Assembly: GCA_937941745.1 (NCBI GenBank)
Contig: CALDGV010000320.1
Span: 1-9,403, forward strand
Direction: 5' to 3'
DNA from: an uncultured Prosthecobacter sp.
GTDB lineage: Bacteria; Verrucomicrobiota; Verrucomicrobiia; Verrucomicrobiales; Verrucomicrobiaceae
DNA length: 9,403 bases
Both the position numbers and the translations under genes were made by a program. This document shows, in pieces, positions 1 through 9,403 of this stretch (positions are counted from its first letter, which is position 1; each line of letters begins with the position of its first letter). Below the pieces are notes generated by a model, which saw only the letters and a program-made list of their open reading frames with translations, made no database searches and had not been told where the DNA came from.

Positions 1-1
1 G

Positions 2-523
2 ACCACCTTGGCAGAGGTTTTGCGCGCCTATCCAGGCGCACAAAGGGCCCTTTTCGCCCGTTATCACATTGGCGGCTGCAGTGCCTGCGCCTACCAGCCC
101 ACGGAAACCCTTGCCCAGGTCTGTGCCCGCAATCAGCTTAGCCTTCCCGAGGTCATCGAGCTCATCCACTCCAGCCATGCAGAGGATGTGAAGCTGCAGA
201 TTTCACCGCAGGATCTGGCGGAATGGCTGCGTGCTGGCGTTGAAGTGCGCCTTTTGGACGCCCGCACCCGTGAAGAGCATGAGGCGGTGAAGATTCCAGG
301 CTCGCAGCTGGTCACTCAGGAGCTTGTGCAGGAAGCCTTCAACGCCTGGCCGAAGGAATCCCGCATCGTGCTATATGATCACACCGGAAATCGCAGCATG
401 GATGTGGCGGCCTATTTCCTGGGGCACGGCTTTGGAAACACCCAGTGCCTCGCTGGAGGCATCGACGCCTACAGCCGGGAGGTGGATGCCAGCCTACCCC
501 GCTACCGGGTGGAGTTGGAGTGA
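2..523 (+). CDS. Rhodanese-like domain protein with N-terminal CxxC domain (5' partial)
   Basis: The reading frame is open to the left edge, so the start codon probably lies just outside the window; the first in-window candidate is TTG at 8, without visible Shine-Dalgarno context. Counting from that TTG, residues 1-55 resemble the small DUF1858/ScdA-N-like redox-disulfide domain, with the motif GGCSAC (C24 and C27). Residues 65-171 form a rhodanese fold: LLDARTREEHEAVKIPGS is the usual DxRxxxEaxxxhIPGA segment, and LAGGIDAY is the conserved C-terminal segment. The active-site loop reads DHTGNRS where active sulfurtransferases have CxxGxRS, so the catalytic cysteine is Asp124. Sulfur transfer by the classical persulfide is therefore unlikely, and the CxxC pair may be the functional thiol site, or the protein may be regulatory. 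It has no clear link to the signalling genes, which converge on it. The rhodanese fold is secure; the role is unknown. Confidence 0.85.
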   Translation, partial: TTLAEVLRAYPGAQRALFARYHIGGCSACAYQPTETLAQVCARNQLSLPEVIELIHSSHAEDVKLQISPQDLAEWLRAGVEVRLLDARTREEHEAVKIPGSQLVTQELVQEAFNAWPKESRIVLYDHTGNRSMDVAAYFLGHGFGNTQCLAGGIDAYSREVDASLPRYRVELE

Positions 524-545
524 GCTAGGCTGCTACTGACTGCGC

Positions 546-1088
546 TCAAGATGCGAGCAGCTGGACCTTGCAGTCCTGCTTCTGGTGCCGCTGGGGAGGG
601 CATGGCGGCGTCTGGTTGAGCTTTTCCCGCTCATCTTCGCTGTAGCCAGACATGGCACAATTCCAGACATCCCCTCCAAGGACGGGGCATGGCCAGGGGC
701 AGCGCTGTGGAACGTAGCCGCGACAGCCCAGGGCTTGATTGACCTTGATGAACAAGTCATCCACACAGTAGGGCTTGCCCAGAATGTCCAGGCTGGTCAT
801 GCCTTGGGATGCTGCCGCCAGATTGCGTTCGCAATCCCCTGAGATCAGGATCACGGGCACTTGGATCGCCTGAAGCCGCAACTGGCGGATAACCTCGGCA
901 CCACTGAGGCCCGGCATGACCATGTCGAGCAGGATGCAGTCTGGCAGGCGATCGGTAAGGGAGACGAGAAATGCGGCACCTGTCCGGAAAAACTCCGTTT
1001 CAAATCCCAGCATCGTCAGCAGGCGGGTGAGGGACAGCCCTACAGTCTCATCATCGTCGATGACGGAGATCAGTGGACTGGATGCCAT
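546..1088 (-). CDS. Receiver-domain response regulator with Cys/Pro-rich tail
   Basis: A CheY-like receiver fills residues 1-120: the acidic cluster DDD at 11-13, phosphoacceptor Asp55 (LLDMVMPG), Ser83 in the Thr/Ser position (ILISGD) and Lys105 (LGKP). The receiver is of the FixJ subfamily, but no LuxR-type helix-turn-helix follows. Instead there is a tail of about 60 residues with six cysteines and many prolines (for example RCPWPCP) that I do not recognise. It may bind metal or a partner, or be the scrambled remnant of a lost output domain. The ATG at 1088 gives a normal receiver N-terminus. A TTG at 1127 is a real alternative: it overlaps the stop of the upstream regulator (TTGA) and has GGAGAG 6 bases before it, which suggests translational coupling and 13 extra residues. 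This is the last gene of the leftward operon. It probably takes a phosphoryl group from the kinase-like protein encoded at 1779-2549 or from another kinase at the locus. Confidence 0.85.
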   Translation of the reverse strand: MASSPLISVIDDDETVGLSLTRLLTMLGFETEFFRTGAAFLVSLTDRLPDCILLDMVMPGLSGAEVIRQLRLQAIQVPVILISGDCERNLAAASQGMTSLDILGKPYCVDDLFIKVNQALGCRGYVPQRCPWPCPVLGGDVWNCAMSGYSEDEREKLNQTPPCPPQRHQKQDCKVQLLAS

Positions 1089-1123
1089 GGTGTGAATGGA
1101 TGAAATGGATGTTTCAGGCCTCT

Positions 1124-1771
1124 TCAAAAGGGACTCTCCGCCCTAGACCTTTCTTGTACAACGCCTAAACGATCGGCCATCCTTACGAGATCGGCCAGAG
1201 ATTGAGACTGCATTTTGGTCATGATGCGTCCGCGGTGGATCTTGATGGTCTTTTCGCTGGTGCCCAGCTCTGCTGCCACCTGCTTGTTGAGCATGCCGGT
1301 TGTCACCAGGGCGAAGACCTCTCGTTCCCGGGGGGACAGTCGCTGGTAGCGCTCCTGAACACCTTGGGCACTGATCAATTCGGCGTGCCGTTCCTGGCTC
1401 TTTTTCAAGGCTTCGTCCACTGCCCGCAGCAACACCGTGTCTTCCACGGGCTTGGACAAAAAGTCCACGGCACCGGTTTTCAGGGCTTCGACACACTGTT
1501 CGATTCGCCCATGAGCTGTCAGGAAAAGCACGCCCAGGGGGCTGCGGTGCTGAACCATTCTCTTTTGAAGCGCCAGCCCATCGAGTTCGGGCATGTGCAT
1601 GTCCAAAATGGCACATCCAGGTGCGTCCATGGCCACAGAATGGAGAAATTCTGCCGGGAATTGAAAAGGCTTCACCCGATGCCCTTCCGATTCCAGAAGC
1701 CGAGTCAGCGCCCTGAGCAGGGCAGCGTCGTCATCGACGACATAGACTTCGAGGTTTCTGTGGGGTTTCAT
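1124..1771 (-). CDS. FixJ/NarL-type response regulator (receiver + LuxR HTH)
   Basis: 215 residues, the usual length for the FixJ family. The receiver (about 7-122) has the acidic triad at D13-D15, phosphoacceptor Asp57 (AILDMHMPELDG), Thr85 (FLTAHG) and Lys107 (LSKP). A linker rich in charged residues leads to a LuxR/GerE helix-turn-helix at about 143-205, with the family signature LSPREREVFALVTTGMLNKQ and the recognition helix around SEKTIKIHRGRIMTKM. It is therefore expected to be a cytoplasmic DNA-binding transcription factor controlled by phosphorylation. The ATG at 1771 lies 7 bases downstream of the stop of the kinase-like gene, so the two are surely co-transcribed. It is the only recognisable DNA-binding output protein in the window, which makes it the natural candidate for the palindrome at 2573-2590 and for the output of the locus. 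The target genes cannot be read from sequence. Confidence 0.95.
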   Translation of the reverse strand: MKPHRNLEVYVVDDDAALLRALTRLLESEGHRVKPFQFPAEFLHSVAMDAPGCAILDMHMPELDGLALQKRMVQHRSPLGVLFLTAHGRIEQCVEALKTGAVDFLSKPVEDTVLLRAVDEALKKSQERHAELISAQGVQERYQRLSPREREVFALVTTGMLNKQVAAELGTSEKTIKIHRGRIMTKMQSQSLADLVRMADRLGVVQERSRAESPF

Positions 1772-1778
1772 CTACAGG

Positions 1779-2549
1779 CTAGAGGATCTTGAATTCCAGA
1801 CCGCATAAGATGGAGTCATGAGCGGCTGAATCGAGGAAAAAACTACCCCTGGAGCCCACAAGTTTGGAATTGAGCCAGCGGGAGCGGCGCATGAGCGCGC
1901 CGGTGACCTCAGCCTGGAAGATGATGCGCAGGGAGCCTGGGGCGTTTTCTGTGCGGACCTGAATCATTCTGCAGGCATCCGGGAGGCCTGCCAGGGCGTC
2001 GAACAAGTCCAGAAGGATAATGATGCATGACCGGATCAGCCTGGGAGAGTCGATTTCCACGACGGGGGTCTCCGCAGGAATGGTTGTCTGGATATGCACC
2101 TGCCTGCGGACCAGTTCACCTGCCACGAGTGACAGTGCCGTAGATAAGGCCTCCTGCACATCTACAGTGCCCCGTCCGTTGCGTACAGTGCCAAGGTATC
2201 CGCCAAAGGCCGACACCAGGCTTTTCAGCCTCCCCACTTCCTGCACAATGTCATGAAGAGCATCCTCAAGGATGTTTTGACCAGGGGGCGGGTCCCTTTT
2301 CACCACCCTCAGGGCTGCCTGGGCATTGAGAAGAATGGCTGCGATAGGCTGGCGCAGGTCGTGAAGCAGGGCGGACGAGAACGCCAGGGGCACCTCGACA
2401 TGATCGCAGACCTCTCCATCGCTGGATGTGCTTGTTTGAACAGCCTCTTCGGGCGAATCTGATACCAGAGAGGTGGGGTTCGATGACATGAGGCGCCGCA
2501 TATCAGCTACACTGATTTGCGTCAACCCAGCCATTCGGCCTGCCTGCAT
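1779..2549 (-). CDS. Histidine-kinase-like protein, intact H-box, degenerate ATPase domain
   Basis: 256 residues, soluble, with no transmembrane segment and no PAS domain. After a polar N-terminus (1-53) comes a HisKA dimerisation segment with His63 in FSSALLHDLRQPIAAILLN, an H-box typical of kinases partnered with FixJ-type regulators. The C-terminal half should hold the HATPase domain, but the N-box position reads IIILLDLFDALAG without the catalytic asparagines, and no DxGxG or GxGxG box follows. I infer a pseudokinase: a phosphotransfer protein, a phosphatase for the neighbouring regulators, or a protein phosphorylated by another kinase. It is the first gene of the leftward operon and starts 84 bases from the nearest possible divergent start. 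The ATG at 2549 has no Shine-Dalgarno; ATGs at residues 6, 17 and 21 are alternatives. The kinase-like nature is clear; the missing ATP-binding function is an inference from motif absence. Confidence 0.85.
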   Translation of the reverse strand: MQAGRMAGLTQISVADMRRLMSSNPTSLVSDSPEEAVQTSTSSDGEVCDHVEVPLAFSSALLHDLRQPIAAILLNAQAALRVVKRDPPPGQNILEDALHDIVQEVGRLKSLVSAFGGYLGTVRNGRGTVDVQEALSTALSLVAGELVRRQVHIQTTIPAETPVVEIDSPRLIRSCIIILLDLFDALAGLPDACRMIQVRTENAPGSLRIIFQAEVTGALMRRSRWLNSKLVGSRGSFFLDSAAHDSILCGLEFKIL

Positions 2550-2572
2550 CCATGCCCATGATTTTCAACGCC

Positions 2573-2590
2573 ATAGGACCATAGTCCTAT
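2573..2590. promoter_or_regulatory. Perfect inverted repeat in divergent control region (candidate operator)
   Basis: ATAGGAC-CATA-GTCCTAT has two perfect 7-base arms and a 4-base spacer. It lies between the leftward operon (start 2549) and the rightward one (start 2667, or 2634 with GTG). An 18-base dyad is the right size for a dimeric LuxR-type response regulator, and such a regulator is encoded in the leftward operon. No T-run follows, so it is not an obvious terminator. I could not identify convincing -35/-10 boxes for either direction. Confidence 0.45.
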
Positions 2591-2666
2591 AGAAGTCATA
2601 CAAGCTCGCAAATACGGTTACCCTCTAGATGGGGTGCCCTGTTCTGCCGTCCACACTCTCGACTCG

Positions 2667-4313
2667 ATGTTTTCCTCCCTGGTTCTCATGTTCTGCAGCT
2701 TGCTCGCCTATACAACGGTGGCGGGTGTGCTGGCGTGCAGACCCACCCTGGCAGGACGCTTTCGAATCCTGCTGATCTTGCTCCCGTTGGCGCCAGGATT
2801 GTGGAGTGCCATCCATCTTGCCTCAACGCTGGCCGGAAGGTTCCAAGATGAAGGAACGATGACGATTGTCTCCGGTTCCTGCCTGCTTGCCGCGCTGACG
2901 ATGCTGTTCTGTGCCGCCCTGGTGGCCGTTTTCACAGGCCTCCTCAAGCGCAGCCACGAGAGGGAGCGTGTCATGTCTGAAATGGCGGCAGAGCTGGAGT
3001 TTGAGGAAGCCCAGACCAGTCTCGTGGTCAATTCGATCAGTGGAGTGCTTTGGCGCCGTTGTCCCGAAAGCGGTCGTTTTCTCAGTCTCAGCCCGCAGGT
3101 GGATGGCTTTTTGGGATACACTGGAGCAGAGTGGGAGAGTCATGCCGCTTTCGCCAAGGAGCGCATTCATCCCCAGGATTTGCAGCGGGTCGAGGCTGCC
3201 AGGAAAAAGGCCCTTGATACGGGTGGACGTTACCAGTCGGAATACCGTTTTAAGCGCAAAGACGGAACTTATGCCGTGGTGTGTGAAGATGGTGTGGTGC
3301 TGCCTGATGCGGCGGGCCATAAGACGGTTTGTGGCGTGATGAAGGACATCACCCAGCGCCATGCCCAGAGCGAGATGCAAAAGCGGCTGCACAAGCAGCA
3401 GGTGGCAGCAGCTCATGAGGCGGGCCGGGCGGAGATCGCCAAAAGCGTGCTGCACAACATTGGGAATGTGCTCACCAGCCTCAATGTGAGCGTCAAACTC
3501 CACGTGGAGAAGATCTCCGCTTCGCGTGCCTCCAATCTGGGCAAGGCGGTCAGGCTGATGCGCGAACACGAGGACAATCTGGCCCGTTTCTTCGAAGAGC
3601 ATCCCCAGGGCAGGCGGCTTCCCGGCTACCTGATCTCCGTGAGTGACCATCTGGCGGCTGAAAACCGCCAGCTTTACCTGGATGCCATGGGCATGGTTCA
3701 GCACATCGAGCACATGCGGGACGTGATCGCTCTCCAGCAAGTCCATGGGCGTGCTGCCCAGGTCGAAGAAGCGGTGGACCTTGCCATTCTGTTTGAGCAG
3801 GCATTGGCCCTCGAAGGTGATCTTCTGAGGGACCGTGACATCGTCATCGAAAGAAATTTTGCCGACATGCCGCTGCTGCTGCTGCCTCGGAATCTCATGC
3901 TTCAGGTTCTGGTCAATCTGCTCAGCAATGCCCGCTATGCCGTTTCCGCTGCTGGCGTGAAGGAGCGAAGGATCATCCTCAGCATTCTGCAGCCTCTTCC
4001 TGGATCAGTGATCATGGCCGTCCAGGACACGGGATGTGGAATCTCCAAATCCAACTTGAAGCGCATTTTCACCCACGGCTTCACCACTCGTAAGGATGGC
4101 AACGGCTTCGGACTGCATCATGCCGCCCTGCTGGTGGAGGAGATGGGCGGCACTTTGAAGGCGCAGAGCGATGGCGAAGGCTGCGGCTCCAGCTTTATCG
4201 TGGAGTTCCCACCGCGTTTCGCCCCGCCGGCGATGGCGGCTGCCCTGCGCGCACCTCCCAATCATTCTCCGGGGGCTTCCGTCAAGCTCCCGGCTTCGGC
4301 GCCGGCTTCATAA
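2667..4313 (+). CDS. Membrane PAS sensor histidine kinase (HNIGN-type H-box)
   Basis: From the ATG at 2667 the protein has 548 residues. Three hydrophobic segments (about 3-23, 34-54, 67-93) anchor it in the inner membrane, then a short charged helix leads to a PAS domain at about 118-230 with a PAC end (YRFKRKDGTYAVV ... MKDITQRH). The phosphorylation helix carries His263 in VLHNIGNVLTSLNVS, a variant in which Asn replaces the usual Glu/Asp after His. The ATP-binding domain is intact: N-box LVNLLSNARYAV (Asn417, Asn421), G1 DTGCGI (Asp454), FTHGFTTRKDG and GNGFGLHHA. A tail of about 30 residues rich in Ala and Pro ends the protein. It is the only kinase seen whole in the window with all catalytic boxes. 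GTG at 2634 would add 11 residues; neither start has a Shine-Dalgarno. The next gene begins 13 bases after the stop. The signal sensed is unknown; the membrane segments could bind a hydrophobic ligand. Confidence 0.92.
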   Translation: MFSSLVLMFCSLLAYTTVAGVLACRPTLAGRFRILLILLPLAPGLWSAIHLASTLAGRFQDEGTMTIVSGSCLLAALTMLFCAALVAVFTGLLKRSHERERVMSEMAAELEFEEAQTSLVVNSISGVLWRRCPESGRFLSLSPQVDGFLGYTGAEWESHAAFAKERIHPQDLQRVEAARKKALDTGGRYQSEYRFKRKDGTYAVVCEDGVVLPDAAGHKTVCGVMKDITQRHAQSEMQKRLHKQQVAAAHEAGRAEIAKSVLHNIGNVLTSLNVSVKLHVEKISASRASNLGKAVRLMREHEDNLARFFEEHPQGRRLPGYLISVSDHLAAENRQLYLDAMGMVQHIEHMRDVIALQQVHGRAAQVEEAVDLAILFEQALALEGDLLRDRDIVIERNFADMPLLLLPRNLMLQVLVNLLSNARYAVSAAGVKERRIILSILQPLPGSVIMAVQDTGCGISKSNLKRIFTHGFTTRKDGNGFGLHHAALLVEEMGGTLKAQSDGEGCGSSFIVEFPPRFAPPAMAAALRAPPNHSPGASVKLPASAPAS

Positions 4314-4326
4314 ATCCGATACTGTC

Positions 4327-6093
4327 ATGTATTCGAATACCCGCATTCTGATCGTCGATGACAACCCTGCCATCCGCGATGACTACCAGCGCATCCTGTC
4401 GCCATCCGACGCTGGTGAAGACGAGCTTTCCCAGGTGGAAGCCATGCTCTTTGATGAAATGCGGCAGCATCAGATGAGGGTGCGGCCGAATTTCCGGATG
4501 GCCTTTGCCAGCCAGGGGGAAGAGGCTGAGACGCTCTGCCGTGCTGCCCTGGAGCAGGGAATGCCGTTTGCAGTGGCGATCGTGGATGTGCGCATGCCGC
4601 CTGGGATTGATGGCGTCGAGACGGTGAAAAGAATCTGGAAGGTCCAGTCGGACACACAGATCGTCCTTTGTACCGCCTATGCCGACTACTCGTGGCGTGA
4701 GATTGTGGAGCAGCTTGGCGCCAGCCATCGGCTGGTGGTTTTGAAAAAGCCTTTTGATCCCATTGAGGTGCTGCAGCTCTGCCAGGCAATGTGCATCAAA
4801 TGGGTGGCTGAACGCGAGATGGCCTGCCGCCAGATCGATCTGCAGAGCAGGTTGATGCGCGCTTCGCTCCGCGTCGAGAAGATGGCGAGTGAGCTCTATC
4901 AGGAGCGGACCGTCCGGACGGAGAATGTCCGACGCCACAGTGAGACGGAGATCGTGGACATCATGTCCGGGCTGGCGGCCAACATCGCTCATGACTTCAA
5001 CAATGCTCTGACCGTCATTCAGGCACATTTGAGCACGGCGCTGATGTCACCGAAGGCAACTGCCGAGTCTCTGCCTCTCGAGCAGATGATCAAGGCGGCG
5101 GGACGAGCCTCACTGCTTAGCCGGCAGATGATGGCTCTTAGTTCAGAGATCCACACGCCGCTGGATGTGCATGTTTTAAATGCACGTCCCGTCATTGCTC
5201 AGCAGTTGGAGATGATGGGCCGTGTGCTGAAGGACAAGGTAAGAATCGACCTCTATTACAGCGGTGCGGATCTGTTTGTCTGTGCCTCAGAGCCTTTGCT
5301 GTCCCGGCTGCTCAACCTGATGGTCATTCGTGCGCAGGAAATCACGCCTCGCGGCGGTTGTGTGAGCATCACGCTTGCCAGCCAGGCCCCTTTGGAGGGC
5401 CAGGGAGGCCCCCGGCATATGATGCTTCACGTCGTCTGTCCGGTCACGCCTCGTGAGGATGTGGTGGAACTGCAGCAGGAATTGCAAATCCGCCTTTCTC
5501 CAGCCGTGAAACTGGCGGAGAGCCTGGGCGGACAGTTGACCTCCCAGCTCAGCCCCGAATGGAACTGCACCTTGTCCCTGGCTCTTCCCGAAGCCGATCC
5601 AATGCAGCCTCAAGAAGCCGTTCAGCGCGTTGCCATGGCTCGCGGCATGGTCACCAATATGGAAAAGAAATTCACGTTCATGGTGGTGGATGACGAACCT
5701 TCCATCTGTGACATCCTGGGGTACATTTTGGGAGGGCAGGGGCATCAAGTTTACAAGGCTGGCACGGCTCTCGAAGCCTGGACCCTATGGCAGGCCAACC
5801 GAGACAAGATCGACATGGTCATATCAGACATTTACCTGCCCGACGGCCTCACTGGCTTTGATCTGGCAGGGTATATCCGTGCTGCAGCCCCTGATCTGCC
5901 CATCATCTACATGAGCGGATATCAGCCTGCCATGATCACGGGCGGCGAGAATCTGATCGTTGGCGTGAACTACCTCGCGAAGCCTTTCGATGTGCTCGAT
6001 CTGTTGAATGTCATCACAAGGGCGTTGGAAAGAAGCTCTTCATCAGCGGGTTCCGCGACCAAAACTCAGCCTTTGACCTCTTTAGTGGCTTGA
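4327..6093 (+). CDS. Receiver / pseudo-histidine kinase / receiver hybrid protein
   Basis: 588 residues, cytoplasmic. Residues 1-155 form a receiver with an unusually long stretch between helix 1 and strand 2, phosphoacceptor Asp87 (IVDVRMPPGIDG), LCTAYADYSW and KKPFD. A helical linker leads to a HisKA-like segment with His222 (ANIAHDFNNALTVIQ). The following HATPase-like region has LLNLMVIRAQEITPRGG, where the N-box Asn is Ile, and no DxGxG or GxGxG, so it is probably not an ATP-using kinase. A second receiver spans about 447-575 with Asp501 (ISDIYLPDG) and Lys552 (LAKPFD). This looks like a phosphorelay hub with two Asp sites and one possible His site. Receiver-plus-kinase architecture recalls PhcR of the Ralstonia Phc system, but the degenerate ATPase and second receiver differ. 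The frame stays open upstream to an ATG at 4171, which would overlap the kinase gene by 143 bases; the ATG at 4327 begins a canonical receiver (NTRILIVDDN) and is preferred. Confidence 0.9.
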   Translation: MYSNTRILIVDDNPAIRDDYQRILSPSDAGEDELSQVEAMLFDEMRQHQMRVRPNFRMAFASQGEEAETLCRAALEQGMPFAVAIVDVRMPPGIDGVETVKRIWKVQSDTQIVLCTAYADYSWREIVEQLGASHRLVVLKKPFDPIEVLQLCQAMCIKWVAEREMACRQIDLQSRLMRASLRVEKMASELYQERTVRTENVRRHSETEIVDIMSGLAANIAHDFNNALTVIQAHLSTALMSPKATAESLPLEQMIKAAGRASLLSRQMMALSSEIHTPLDVHVLNARPVIAQQLEMMGRVLKDKVRIDLYYSGADLFVCASEPLLSRLLNLMVIRAQEITPRGGCVSITLASQAPLEGQGGPRHMMLHVVCPVTPREDVVELQQELQIRLSPAVKLAESLGGQLTSQLSPEWNCTLSLALPEADPMQPQEAVQRVAMARGMVTNMEKKFTFMVVDDEPSICDILGYILGGQGHQVYKAGTALEAWTLWQANRDKIDMVISDIYLPDGLTGFDLAGYIRAAAPDLPIIYMSGYQPAMITGGENLIVGVNYLAKPFDVLDLLNVITRALERSSSSAGSATKTQPLTSLVA

Positions 6094-6125
6094 ACAGCCA
6101 ACACTAAACCTTCAAAAAGAATAAA

Positions 6126-7334
6126 ATGAAGTTCTCTAAAATACTAACCTCGTTGTTGAGCGTGCTGGTAGGCGCAGTTCCCGCTGTTCATGCTGCGGAA
6201 TCCTTGTCGCTGATTCCCGATTCAGCCGAAGCGCTAGGTATCGCTGGCGGACGTTTCGCCAACCTCCAAGACGCCACGACTGCCAGGGTAGCCCCGGCAT
6301 CGATGGTGGACGCGGAGCAGGCTTCCATTCAGGTGAATGCAGGGCTCTGGAGATCAGACATCGGCCTGGAGTCCAGCGCAGGGATTTCTCTTCATAACAA
6401 CGATCCCTGGGTTTACCCCGCCAGCCTCTATGCCGTCGTTCCCTTCTTGGATAATCGGATGGCCGCGGGACTTGGGATCAGCACGCCTTACGGTCTGGGT
6501 TCTCAATACTCGAAATCCTCGCCGCTAAAATACCTCGTGCCCTATGAGTCCAGCCTGATGACCTACAGCATCACGCCTTCCCTGGCTTTTCGCGTCACGG
6601 ACAGCGTCAGTGTTGGGCTCGGCCTGGATTTCATGTATGGCGACCTTCGCATCAATCAGCTTTTTCCCCTGGTGCCAGGTGTAGATGGAGAGTTTCGGTT
6701 CGATGCCCAAGGCTGGGGTGCGAGCGGGTTTGGCAGCGTTCTCTGGAAGATCACTCCAAGGCAGCGCCTGGCCTTGGTTGGCCGCCTTCCCCTGCGCCTA
6801 GAGATGGATGGTGACCTGCAGATTCGGACTGCTGGGACCACAATAACCGACTTTGAGACGGACATGACGTTCCCTGGCTCTATCGGTCTTGGTTATGGGA
6901 TTGATCTGACGGATCGCTTCACCTTGGGCTTTGATTTCAAATGGTCGGCCAACAGTTCGCATGATGACATCCCGCTGCGGACCAAAAACGTCACCCTCCC
7001 GCAGCAGAGCCTGCCGTTGAAATGGAAAAACTCCATCGATCTGGGTGTTGGCGGTACCTACAAGCTGTCGAAGAGCTGGCTCTTGCGTGCAGGCTATCTC
7101 TTCTCGGAAAACTCAATGCCGGACAGCACCTATACGCCCTCCATCCCCGCCTATGACCGCCACATCTTCAGCTTCGGCCTGGGCTGGCGTGGGAAAAGCA
7201 ACCGCATCGATGCCACTTACGGATTCATCTACAACCCCGACCGAACCGTCACTGGAGCGAGCACGGCAGCCTTCAATGGCAGTTATCGGCATCAATGGCA
7301 TGTCCTCAACCTTAGCTTTACCCACCTTTTCTGA
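6126..7334 (+). CDS. FadL/OmpP1-type outer-membrane transporter
   Basis: 402 residues, slightly short for the FadL family (usually about 400-450). A signal peptide is clear: MKFSK, hydrophobic stretch 6-20, cleavage likely after Ala23 (VHA|AES). The mature N-terminus resembles the FadL plug region: AEALGIAGGRFANLQDATTA matches the G-x-AG-x-A-x-A-x-DAST pattern, although the usual NPA motif reads APA (VAPASM). The rest alternates polar and hydrophobic residues as in a beta barrel, with SLYAVVPFLDNRMAAGLGIS, STPYGLGSQY and the typical late strand DRFTLGFDFKW. The protein ends in Phe (LNLSFTHLF), as expected for outer-membrane assembly. FadL proteins pass long-chain fatty acids and other hydrophobic molecules. 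Its place 32 bases after a phosphorelay gene and just before a PhcB-like methyltransferase suggests, as inference, uptake of a lipid-like signal rather than nutrition. Confidence 0.9.
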   Translation: MKFSKILTSLLSVLVGAVPAVHAAESLSLIPDSAEALGIAGGRFANLQDATTARVAPASMVDAEQASIQVNAGLWRSDIGLESSAGISLHNNDPWVYPASLYAVVPFLDNRMAAGLGISTPYGLGSQYSKSSPLKYLVPYESSLMTYSITPSLAFRVTDSVSVGLGLDFMYGDLRINQLFPLVPGVDGEFRFDAQGWGASGFGSVLWKITPRQRLALVGRLPLRLEMDGDLQIRTAGTTITDFETDMTFPGSIGLGYGIDLTDRFTLGFDFKWSANSSHDDIPLRTKNVTLPQQSLPLKWKNSIDLGVGGTYKLSKSWLLRAGYLFSENSMPDSTYTPSIPAYDRHIFSFGLGWRGKSNRIDATYGFIYNPDRTVTGASTAAFNGSYRHQWHVLNLSFTHLF

Positions 7335-7453
7335 CCGTGTCAGAAAGTCAGGCGGCGGCAGGTGCAGCCTCAGCGCGTTTGCGCCCGTCTCCATGGGCGG
7401 AGCTTCGGTGCATTTTTTAGCCTGTCCGGCCTGGTTTTAATTACCAACGATTT

Positions 7454-8914
7454 ATGGTTTTCGACATTGTCCCCCAGACGGCATCCGGCGGCCCGCTCGC
7501 CGGCGACCGCCTTGGCATCATCTACTGCCGCAACAGCCAGGGTGCCGAGGTGCGAGGTACCATCCTCCGGCTGACGAGGCACTCTGCTGTGTTTGAGGTG
7601 TACAACCCATACAGCATCCTGCAGCTGTCTGAGGTGCTCAGTGAGCTGCAGATCAGCGTCAACGAGCGTGTCCTTTATTCAGGGCGCGCGGTCATCAGCA
7701 ACTTATTAAACGCAGGAATCATGCTCGTGCTGGAAGCCGCTCTCGAGGAGGAGGGCTGGCGCAATGTGGATGCGTTCAATCCGCTGGGGGATCTGAAACG
7801 GCTCAGCGGTGAGCTGGCGGACTTTCTTCAGGACAGCAAGCGGGTGTTCCAGGTGAATCCAGAGTTCAAGCTGGTCGTGTCGGACATCCAATCCATCCTC
7901 GTGGACCTCCGCCGTTGGATGGAGCAGGTGGAATTCGGAGTGAACACGTTGCCTGCGACCGACCGGGATCACGTGGAGCTGGAGATCATCCGCAGTCTCG
8001 AGGACCCCGTAGTGCCTGTCATGCTGCCGCTGATGCGGAAATTTGAAGGCATTGCAGGTGAGATACCGCCTGAGCAGCAGCCCGTGCATCGCAGCTACAT
8101 CAAGCGCCAGCTGCATCCCCTGGTGCTGTGCGCCCCCTTTGTTTACCGGACTTTCGTCAAGCCGCTCGGCTACGCTGGCGATTATGAAATGGTCAGCATG
8201 ATGCTGCGCGACCCATACGAAGGCGGCAGCACTTATGCCAAGCTCCTGAACAAGCTCTACCTTGAGATTCCTCCAGTCATCGCGCATCGGAACAGGATCA
8301 CCTATCTCGTGGAGCGCCTGTCCGAGGAGACTCAGCGCATGAAAACCTTGGGGCGGCGTGCCCAGGTCTTCAATCTTGGCTGCGGGCCGGCGCAGGAAAT
8401 TCAGCGGTTTTTGAAGGATCAGCCCATCAGTGATGAAGCGGATTTGACGCTCCTGGATTTCAATGACGAAACGATCGAGAATACGGCGGCGACGACACGG
8501 AAAAACGCCGTTGAACATGGTCGCCGCACAGGTCTGAGCTTCGTGAAGAAATCGGTGCAGCAGGTTTTGAAGGAATCCATGAAGTCTGGAGGACCGGAAG
8601 CCGGACGATATGACTTGGTTTATTGCGCCGGTCTTTTCGATTACCTCTCGGACAGGATTTGCCGACGTTTGCTGGAGATTTTTTATGACATGCTGGCGCC
8701 CGGTGGACTTTTGATTGCCACAAATGTCCACCCGAGCAACGACTGGAAAAACTGGATGGAGTACCTCGCGGAATGGCACCTGGTCTACCGTGATGAGCAG
8801 CAGTTTCTGGCCTTGGCCCCATCTGCAGCCTCCCCTGATTCCATCAGGGTCATTCCTGATGCCACGGGCGTGAACATCTTCCTGGAAGTGCGCAAGCCGG
8901 ATGTCCCTTCATGA
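7454..8914 (+). CDS. PhcB-like SAM-dependent methyltransferase with PilZ-like N-terminus
   Basis: 486 residues. Residues 20-95 resemble a PilZ-type beta barrel (RGTILRLTRHSAVFEVYNPY ... YSGRAVISNLLNAG) but lack the RxxxR and D/NxSxxG motifs that bind cyclic di-GMP. Residues 100-290 are mostly helical. From about 295 there is a class I methyltransferase fold: motif I VFNLGCGPA (Gly309, Gly311), acidic residue Asp335 after LTLL, DLVYCAGLFDYLSD around Asp387, and LAPGGLLIATNVHPSN. The whole resembles the family annotated as 3-hydroxypalmitic acid methyl ester biosynthesis protein (PhcB of Ralstonia), whose product is a fatty acid methyl ester quorum signal; this is recalled, not searched. There is no signal peptide, so it should act in the cytoplasm. 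The ATG at 7454 has no Shine-Dalgarno, and the stop overlaps the next gene by ATGA. The methyltransferase class is firm; the substrate is inferred. Confidence 0.88.
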   Translation: MVFDIVPQTASGGPLAGDRLGIIYCRNSQGAEVRGTILRLTRHSAVFEVYNPYSILQLSEVLSELQISVNERVLYSGRAVISNLLNAGIMLVLEAALEEEGWRNVDAFNPLGDLKRLSGELADFLQDSKRVFQVNPEFKLVVSDIQSILVDLRRWMEQVEFGVNTLPATDRDHVELEIIRSLEDPVVPVMLPLMRKFEGIAGEIPPEQQPVHRSYIKRQLHPLVLCAPFVYRTFVKPLGYAGDYEMVSMMLRDPYEGGSTYAKLLNKLYLEIPPVIAHRNRITYLVERLSEETQRMKTLGRRAQVFNLGCGPAQEIQRFLKDQPISDEADLTLLDFNDETIENTAATTRKNAVEHGRRTGLSFVKKSVQQVLKESMKSGGPEAGRYDLVYCAGLFDYLSDRICRRLLEIFYDMLAPGGLLIATNVHPSNDWKNWMEYLAEWHLVYRDEQQFLALAPSAASPDSIRVIPDATGVNIFLEVRKPDVPS

Positions 8915-9403
8915 TGCTCACGACGAAAGCCAGTCTTTACGAGGCCGATGCGGGCCTGAGGCGTGAGTTTCAGGCTTACGAGAGGGATATTCGCATCAGC
9001 AACTACCGCAACTGCGCGATTCTCGCGGCCTTTTTCATGGTGGCGGGTGCATCTCTCGACTGGATTGTTTACGGCACAGATGGAGTGAAGGCCTTCATTC
9101 ACCTGCGTGTGATATCGGCGGTCATGCTGCTTGGCATCCGGATGGCATTGAAGCATCCTTTTGGGCGTGAATGGCATCGTCCACTCGGGCTCGCCATGGG
9201 GATTCCATTGATGGGGGCGATTGGCTGGATGATTTATGTCAATGAAGGTTATGCCTCCCCCTACTATGCGGGATTGAACCTTGTGCTTGTGGGCGCTGCG
9301 ATCCTGATGCGCTGGCCTTTGTTTGAGAGCTGTCTCGTTGTCGTGCTCACGCTCGGCATTTACCTGCTGGCTTGCGTCCTTCATGGCCCCATTTCAAAAC
9401 TCA
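8911..9403 (+). CDS. Polytopic membrane protein, probable PhcS/LqsS-type sensor kinase N-terminus (3' partial)
   Basis: The frame starts at ATG 8911 (a second ATG at 8914) inside ATGATG, overlapping the methyltransferase stop by 4 bases, and stays open for 164 codons to the window edge. After a charged N-terminus (1-31, EFQAYERDIRISNYRN) there are about five hydrophobic segments: 35-54, 64-80, 92-110, 119-134 and 138-157. Short loops and the motif SPYYAGLNLVLVGAAILMRW occur in membrane sensors of the LqsS/PhcS kind, in which about six helices bind the signal before a cytoplasmic kinase, and also in some adenylate cyclases. No kinase motif lies within the window, so the output domain is unseen. 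Start-stop coupling to a PhcB-like synthase supports a signal synthase/sensor pair. Confidence 0.8.
   Translation, partial: MMLTTKASLYEADAGLRREFQAYERDIRISNYRNCAILAAFFMVAGASLDWIVYGTDGVKAFIHLRVISAVMLLGIRMALKHPFGREWHRPLGLAMGIPLMGAIGWMIYVNEGYASPYYAGLNLVLVGAAILMRWPLFESCLVVVLTLGIYLLACVLHGPISKL

Follow-up and report, generated by a model that had tools for sequence, protein, structure and literature searches.

A candidate Phc-type fatty-acid methyl ester signalling operon in Verrucomicrobiota

The Phc signalling system is known from Ralstonia and its kin, and we describe here a locus from the Verrucomicrobiota that by its sequence belongs to the same type. It lies at the end of a 9,403-nucleotide stretch from an uncultured Prosthecobacter sp. 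(contig CALDGV010000320.1, positions 1 to 9,403), the whole of which we refer to as the window. We consider it probable that the window ends in the first genes of a Phc-type operon, with a synthase that likely makes a fatty-acid methyl ester and a neighbouring sensor predicted to detect it. The homology and synteny beneath this reading are firm. The elements concerned are the following:

7454..8914, + strand: PhcB-like signal synthase, a predicted class I S-adenosylmethionine-dependent methyltransferase of 486 amino acids, 45% identical to Ralstonia PhcB
7505..7807, + strand: PilZ-like beta-barrel domain at the N terminus of the synthase (residues 18 to 118), a predicted fold
8911..9403, + strand: opening 164 codons of a PhcS-type sensor gene, covering its multi-helix membrane domain; frame open at the window end
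6126..7334, + strand: FadL/OMPP1-family outer-membrane channel, proposed to serve as signal channel; 402 amino acids, Pfam PF03349 (Toluene_X) at 144.6 bits against a cut-off of 29.7

The frames of the methyltransferase and the sensor overlap by the 4 bases ATGA (...TTCATGATG...), such that the sensor start at 8911 sits within the stop codon of the methyltransferase gene; an alternative in-frame ATG at 8914 would reduce this overlap to 1 base. An initial annotation, made from the letters of the window alone, had given the same coordinates, order and 4-base overlap, and all three genes are indeed found at these places. Its assignment of a FadL-type porin upstream of the methyltransferase is likewise borne out by the Toluene_X match.

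Judged by alignment, the window synthase is a full-length relative of PhcB. Over 454 aligned residues (E 5e-131), it is 45% identical to a protein of R. pseudosolanacearum named PhcB (P0267), and its 486 amino acids compare with the 464 to 468 given for Ralstonia PhcB in excerpts of PMC8578825. A plasmid-borne protein of Paraburkholderia graminis, encoded just ahead of genes for a kinase and two receiver proteins, is 39.8% identical with 94% of the query covered. Searches from this Paraburkholderia protein led to Cupriavidus, Massilia and Janthinobacterium, and from Cupriavidus to the R. pseudosolanacearum proteins named PhcB. The nearest named relatives, proteins and contigs alike, are from Verrucomicrobiaceae, with the synthase of Brevifollis gellanilyticus at 78%, which makes a host of that family very likely. 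Pfam and NCBIfam scans returned general methyltransferase models only; in JGI pipelines, the annotation given to genes of this kind already reads 'extracellular factor (EF) 3-hydroxypalmitic acid methyl ester biosynthesis protein'. In the predicted structure of the whole synthase (mean predicted local distance difference test score, pLDDT, 83.8), methyltransferase matches span residues 227 to 484, and a sequence search of solved structures gave weak rows only (best E 0.007), with no PhcB among them. Of the 38 alignment rows, 35 contain the motif KPxGYAGDY and 35 the motif [AS]GLFDY. Two outgroup methyltransferases have neither in that form, yet contain related KPxGYxGD stretches, so that the motif alone is no definition of PhcB. 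As had been proposed for the window, the methyltransferase groups with PhcB and not with families acting on other substrates, both by the 454-residue alignment and in our trees, where Betaproteobacterial PhcB rows adjoin verrucomicrobial ones.

The circuit might nevertheless be of the same type and use another molecule, if some other lipid-like acid were methylated and both sensor and FadL channel were tuned to that product instead of to 3-hydroxy fatty acid methyl esters. Identity with PhcB is only about 40 to 45%, the substrate residues are not known, the matching family models are generic, and distant relatives such as those in loci L074, L076 and L077 lose several conserved blocks. PhcB, however, has most of the conserved blocks as well, including the two motifs above; moreover, the sensor is conserved alongside the synthase, and fatty acids are taken up by FadL-family channels. 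We regard a different signal molecule as unlikely, if worth keeping in mind.

The pairing of synthase and sensor extends well beyond the window. We examined 30 near loci, chosen for their similarity to the window, and 20 phylum loci from a phylum-wide search, scoring adjacency by tblastn (L030 was counted as Verrucomicrobiota since its genome drew the same genomes as that phylum). A sensor lies directly downstream of the synthase in 30/30 near loci and 19/20 phylum loci. Some sensor queries came from L001, L009, L030, L068, L072 and L075, which therefore match by construction; an independent Paraburkholderia query also finds the sensors of these loci. At a threshold of E 1e-60, the synthase occurs in 22 of 387 Verrucomicrobiota genomes, and a sensor membrane-domain match follows it in 21 of the 22 (weak in L052, at 45 bits; none in L057). 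In the family of Brevifollis, counting the synthase alone, 45 of 68 genomes have one, with E 1e-215 or better in 38. The synthase-sensor pairing is beyond chance, and the neighbourhood that the initial annotation had marked for a survey proved to be conserved.

The 164-residue sensor fragment in the window has no Pfam match. In an alignment, it is 67% identical to the start of the Brevifollis sensor, whose row is in turn 25% identical to the Paraburkholderia sensor. The complete Brevifollis sensor, of 915 amino acids, comprises the membrane domain, a HisKA-HATPase kinase, a receiver and a second HisKA-HATPase kinase, and most verrucomicrobial relatives likewise have membrane domain, kinase, receiver and second PhcS-type kinase. 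The Paraburkholderia sensor (445 amino acids) has the membrane domain and one kinase. With this membrane domain as query against the 50 loci, 49 synthase-linked sensors rank ahead of any other open reading frame (ORF; next E 1.5), the weakest being L027 (E 0.41), L073 (E 0.002) and L030 (E 0.001). With the Paraburkholderia kinase as query, 47 synthase-linked sensors come first, the remainder being cut by contig ends. Because this query aligns to the second kinase of the long verrucomicrobial sensors, the first kinase and the receiver look as if inserted behind the membrane domain, ahead of a putative PhcS-type kinase. Thus, among the genes of the loci examined, the sensor membrane domain and, in relatives, the second kinase are by sequence similarity closest to the Paraburkholderia PhcS-like kinase.

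An HE[IV]NNP histidine box is present in the sensor relatives, in a part ahead of which the window ends. Its histidine is at position 233 of the Paraburkholderia sensor and 232 of L074, a one-kinase verrucomicrobial sensor; excerpts of PMC11960443 give H230 for Ralstonia PhcS. One-kinase sensors occur in Verrucomicrobiota in L074 and in the second operons described below, and in L071 the sensor parts are split into two genes. For the membrane-domain family MASE8 (PF20968), matches at E up to 1 were obtained with 9 of 16 sensor rows; when ten proteins were scanned, four matched, with only L062 above the cut-off (40.3 bits versus 26.2). L074 reached 20.5 bits, and the window fragment gave no match. 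A cyclase or other output at the end of the 8911 product was considered and rejected, as complete relatives end in a histidine kinase. This and the membrane domain in the window agree with the earlier description of the gene as starting like a multi-helix membrane sensor, in the order known from Ralstonia phcB-phcS.

The FadL gene is a frequent, not a universal, neighbour of the synthase. Among the 29 near loci with room (L003, without room, was left out), 24 have it immediately upstream, within 1.5 kb and in the same orientation. The 24 synthase-bearing genomes hold 31 PF03349 genes, which in 10 genomes are located at most 8 kb from the synthase, against 0.10 expected; without genomes G002 and G004, the figures are 8 and 0.096. 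Since the genomes are related and 8 kb was chosen as the limit once the gene places had been seen, the Poisson value of 3e-17 is indicative only. Presence of FadL also goes with that of the synthase (16/22 synthase-bearing versus 127/365 other genomes; Fisher p 5e-4, genomes related). Its place varies, up- or downstream of the synthase and on either strand. Excerpts of PMC5977203 describe FadL as aiding the perception of long-chain acyl-homoserine lactones (AHLs) in Sinorhizobium, and together with excerpts of PMC9938287 connect such channels with long-chain AHL perception in other rhizobia as well.

The channel could also point to sensing of outside lipids, not of density: FadL would import environmental fatty acids, the methyltransferase would modify or detoxify them, and the sensor would report them. 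FadL as a neighbour of the synthase fits such a role, as do the functions of the family in fatty-acid and hydrocarbon uptake (PMC7728783). No fatty-acid breakdown genes were recognised among the nine scanned ORFs of the window, however, and the conserved pair is synthase and sensor, with FadL the variable part, and we judge lipid sensing improbable. That a generic methyltransferase merely sits beside a generic kinase is hardly credible: both families are large and their Pfam and NCBIfam names generic, but adjacency in 30/30 and 19/20 loci speaks against a chance pairing, and the best matches are specifically to Phc-like proteins.

Phc-type density signalling, the reading we prefer, would also call for a regulator, which here would fall beyond the window end. 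In other loci, a separate receiver protein follows the sensor in 27/27 near loci with room and in 17/20 phylum loci, the latter being a raw count of 19/20 minus L071 and L072, where the match lies inside the sensor. A Paraburkholderia PhcQ-like query ranks 45 of these downstream regulators first. There is usually one regulator gene, with two or more in L028 and L067 to L070. In the Brevifollis regulator there are receiver and ATPase parts, a HisKA match too weak to reach the cut-off and, by eye, no clear N box; no DNA-binding domain was seen in it, and excerpts of PMC8578825 describe PhcR as likewise lacking one. In such a circuit, PhcB would methylate a 3-hydroxy fatty acid, and the resulting ester would exit the cell, re-enter across the outer membrane, aided by the neighbouring FadL where present, and act on the membrane domain of the sensor. 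Phosphate would then pass from the sensor kinases to the sensor's own receiver and on to the downstream regulator, in which no DNA-binding domain was recognised. The bacteria would thereby sense their own density, signalling to each other with a predicted oily molecule similar to the fatty-acid methyl ester of Ralstonia.

The synthase carries a further candidate module at its N terminus. Because the fold search with the whole synthase was filled by methyltransferases, residues 18 to 118 were folded separately (pLDDT 85.1), and PilZ proteins made up the 11 best Foldseek rows and the 21 best VIA rows. The predicted fold resembles that of PilZ domains such as Pseudomonas putida PP4397, Alg44 and MrkH. 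PilZ domains bind cyclic di-GMP through the motifs RxxxR and [DN]xSxxG. Unlike these receptors, the window synthase has neither: RxxxR is missing from its first 120 residues, and [DN]xSxxG is found in 0/38 synthase rows. RxxxR does occur somewhere in the first 120 residues of 17/38 rows, at about residue 116 in 8 of them. The PilZ-like domain of PhcB may be a regulatory or interaction module without the usual cyclic di-GMP binding. Residue R34 of the window synthase aligns with R22 of Ralstonia PhcB, an arginine being present there in 28/38 rows. The authors of the R22C study, in excerpts of PMC6989110, put this residue outside known domains; the predicted PilZ-like fold would give it a structural home.

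Several observations weigh against the Phc reading. The window sensor is cut off after 164 codons, its kinase part lying beyond the window, and the references for PhcS, PhcR and PhcQ were the Paraburkholderia graminis counterparts, not those of Ralstonia, with one Betaproteobacterial sensor only. No FadL gene adjoins the synthase in L017, L018, L026, L028 and L029; FadL occurs within 1.5 kb in 0/20 phylum loci; and 6/24 synthase-bearing genomes are without any FadL-family hit. L071 and L072 have no separate regulator, L077 has neither sensor nor regulator adjoining its synthase, and the R22 position is not R in 10/38 rows.

Two genes upstream of FadL also enter this balance:

4324..6093, + strand: receiver-HisKA-receiver protein without recognisable ATPase domain, a possible phosphorelay partner
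2634..4313, + strand: PAS histidine kinase with N, G1 and G2 boxes recognisable by eye, a possible phosphorelay partner

Both lie on the same strand as the operon; phosphorelay proteins upstream had previously been noted for the window. The label 'pseudokinases' suits the 4324 protein and not the 2634 kinase, which keeps its boxes. Their order is kept in 4 of the 30 loci (L001, L008, L009, L027; several loci are without room), and we rejected them as core parts. The earlier reading of a Phc-type signalling system is supported, with PhcB homology and the conserved synthase-sensor pair on its side; the non-universal FadL and the rarely kept upstream order set limits to it. Divergent from the operon, at 546-2549 (- strand), lie genes for a HisKA protein and for two receiver proteins, of which one bears a LuxR-type DNA-binding domain. 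In L008 and L027, the HisKA gene and the LuxR-type gene have relatives at the same place, and this group could be the source of the missing DNA-binding output. The window begins with a gene end at 2-523 (+ strand) with a rhodanese domain, preceded by a cysteine-bearing stretch which we take to resemble a DUF1858/ScdA-type domain.

Variant arrangements were found elsewhere in the phylum. Because row P0241 of the sensor alignment (A5) carried its kinase, kinase matches swamped the phylum-wide search made with it, and only rows matching before about position 220 were used. Some genomes of Verrucomicrobiaceae that also carry the window-type operon have a second Phc-like one (at least 5 loci, L078 to L082). 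In L079 and L080, it consists of a 319-amino-acid methyltransferase that lacks the PilZ part, a sensor with one kinase (495 to 497 amino acids) and a receiver-ATPase protein; in L081, L082 and L078, sensor and regulator occur without an adjoining methyltransferase. The L079 example is:

L079:7505-11346, + strand: second Phc-like operon, with short methyltransferase, one-kinase sensor and receiver-ATPase protein

In L076 (2089-4143), the synthase frame (685 amino acids in all) opens with a receiver domain (PF00072, 1.4e-24), a predicted fusion that ties the synthase to phosphorelay. Frames of 686 to 713 amino acids occur in five further genomes, judged by length only. In another locus, L083 (genome G317, 5274-11496), a two-kinase PhcS-type sensor and two receiver proteins follow a tryptophan-halogenase-like gene, not a PhcB-like one.

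Trees were built from 28 of the 51 verrucomicrobial synthases (the window plus the 30 and 20 loci) and included one Betaproteobacterial sensor. In the PhcB trees, ten Betaproteobacterial rows form one clade that joins L028 (Opitutaceae), L067, L068 and L069 (100/97; 99/97); in the PhcS tree, the single Betaproteobacterial row joins L028 and L067 (95/89), then L068 and L069 (99/93). This agreement suggests that the genes for synthase and sensor were transferred as a pair. An approximately unbiased (AU) test with short methyltransferases as outgroup, from which two long outgroups as well as L076 and L077 were left out, did not reject verrucomicrobial monophyly of the synthase (p-AU 0.33). With this result, and with the very long branches of the other outgroups in the PhcB tree, the trees give no direction of transfer.

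Taken together, these results allow a broader picture, which we offer as tentative and, in its entirety, doubtful. Verrucomicrobiota would be a main and old home of Phc, with two parallel circuits per cell (one pairing PilZ-PhcB and a two-kinase sensor, the other a short PhcB and a one-kinase sensor), a dedicated FadL entry for the lipid signal and a synthase gated by its PilZ fold or by a receiver. The Betaproteobacterial virulence regulator phcBSRQ would stem from an Opitutaceae-like lineage, and the two phyla would hear each other.

In the open-access literature (subscription papers were not covered), we found no report of phcB or its ester in Verrucomicrobia, of quorum sensing by this locus in Prosthecobacter or Verrucomicrobia, or of a link between PhcB and PilZ. 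A 2023 survey, limited to Proteobacteria, places the phc cluster mainly in Betaproteobacteria according to excerpts of PMC10653808. Root strains of Verrucomicrobiota are reported to suppress bacterial wilt, in a paper whose main text mentions neither quorum sensing nor phc (PMC12753962). With the synthase in 45/68 genomes of one family and 22/387 across the phylum, the locus would give hard-to-grow bacteria a concrete, testable form of density sensing. It would also offer a second lineage for asking how PhcS reads a membrane-soluble signal, and whether phyla signal to each other in soil becomes a testable question.

Compared with the Phc systems of Ralstonia and other Betaproteobacteria, the verrucomicrobial loci have a synthase whose homology covers almost the full protein, the same order of synthase, membrane sensor kinase and receiver protein(s) and, in one-kinase sensors, a histidine box near position 230. 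In contrast to the single sensor kinase of the Betaproteobacteria, most verrucomicrobial sensors are of the kinase-receiver-kinase type; there is usually one regulator gene, and further differences from Ralstonia are the frequent FadL neighbour, the receiver-synthase fusion of L076 and, in some genomes, a second, short Phc-like operon. The perception of AHLs through FadL in Sinorhizobium and other rhizobia offers a second parallel, in that a FadL-family outer-membrane channel is tied to a lipid-like signal; here, however, the synthase gene has fadL as its neighbour, and no AHL is predicted as the signal.

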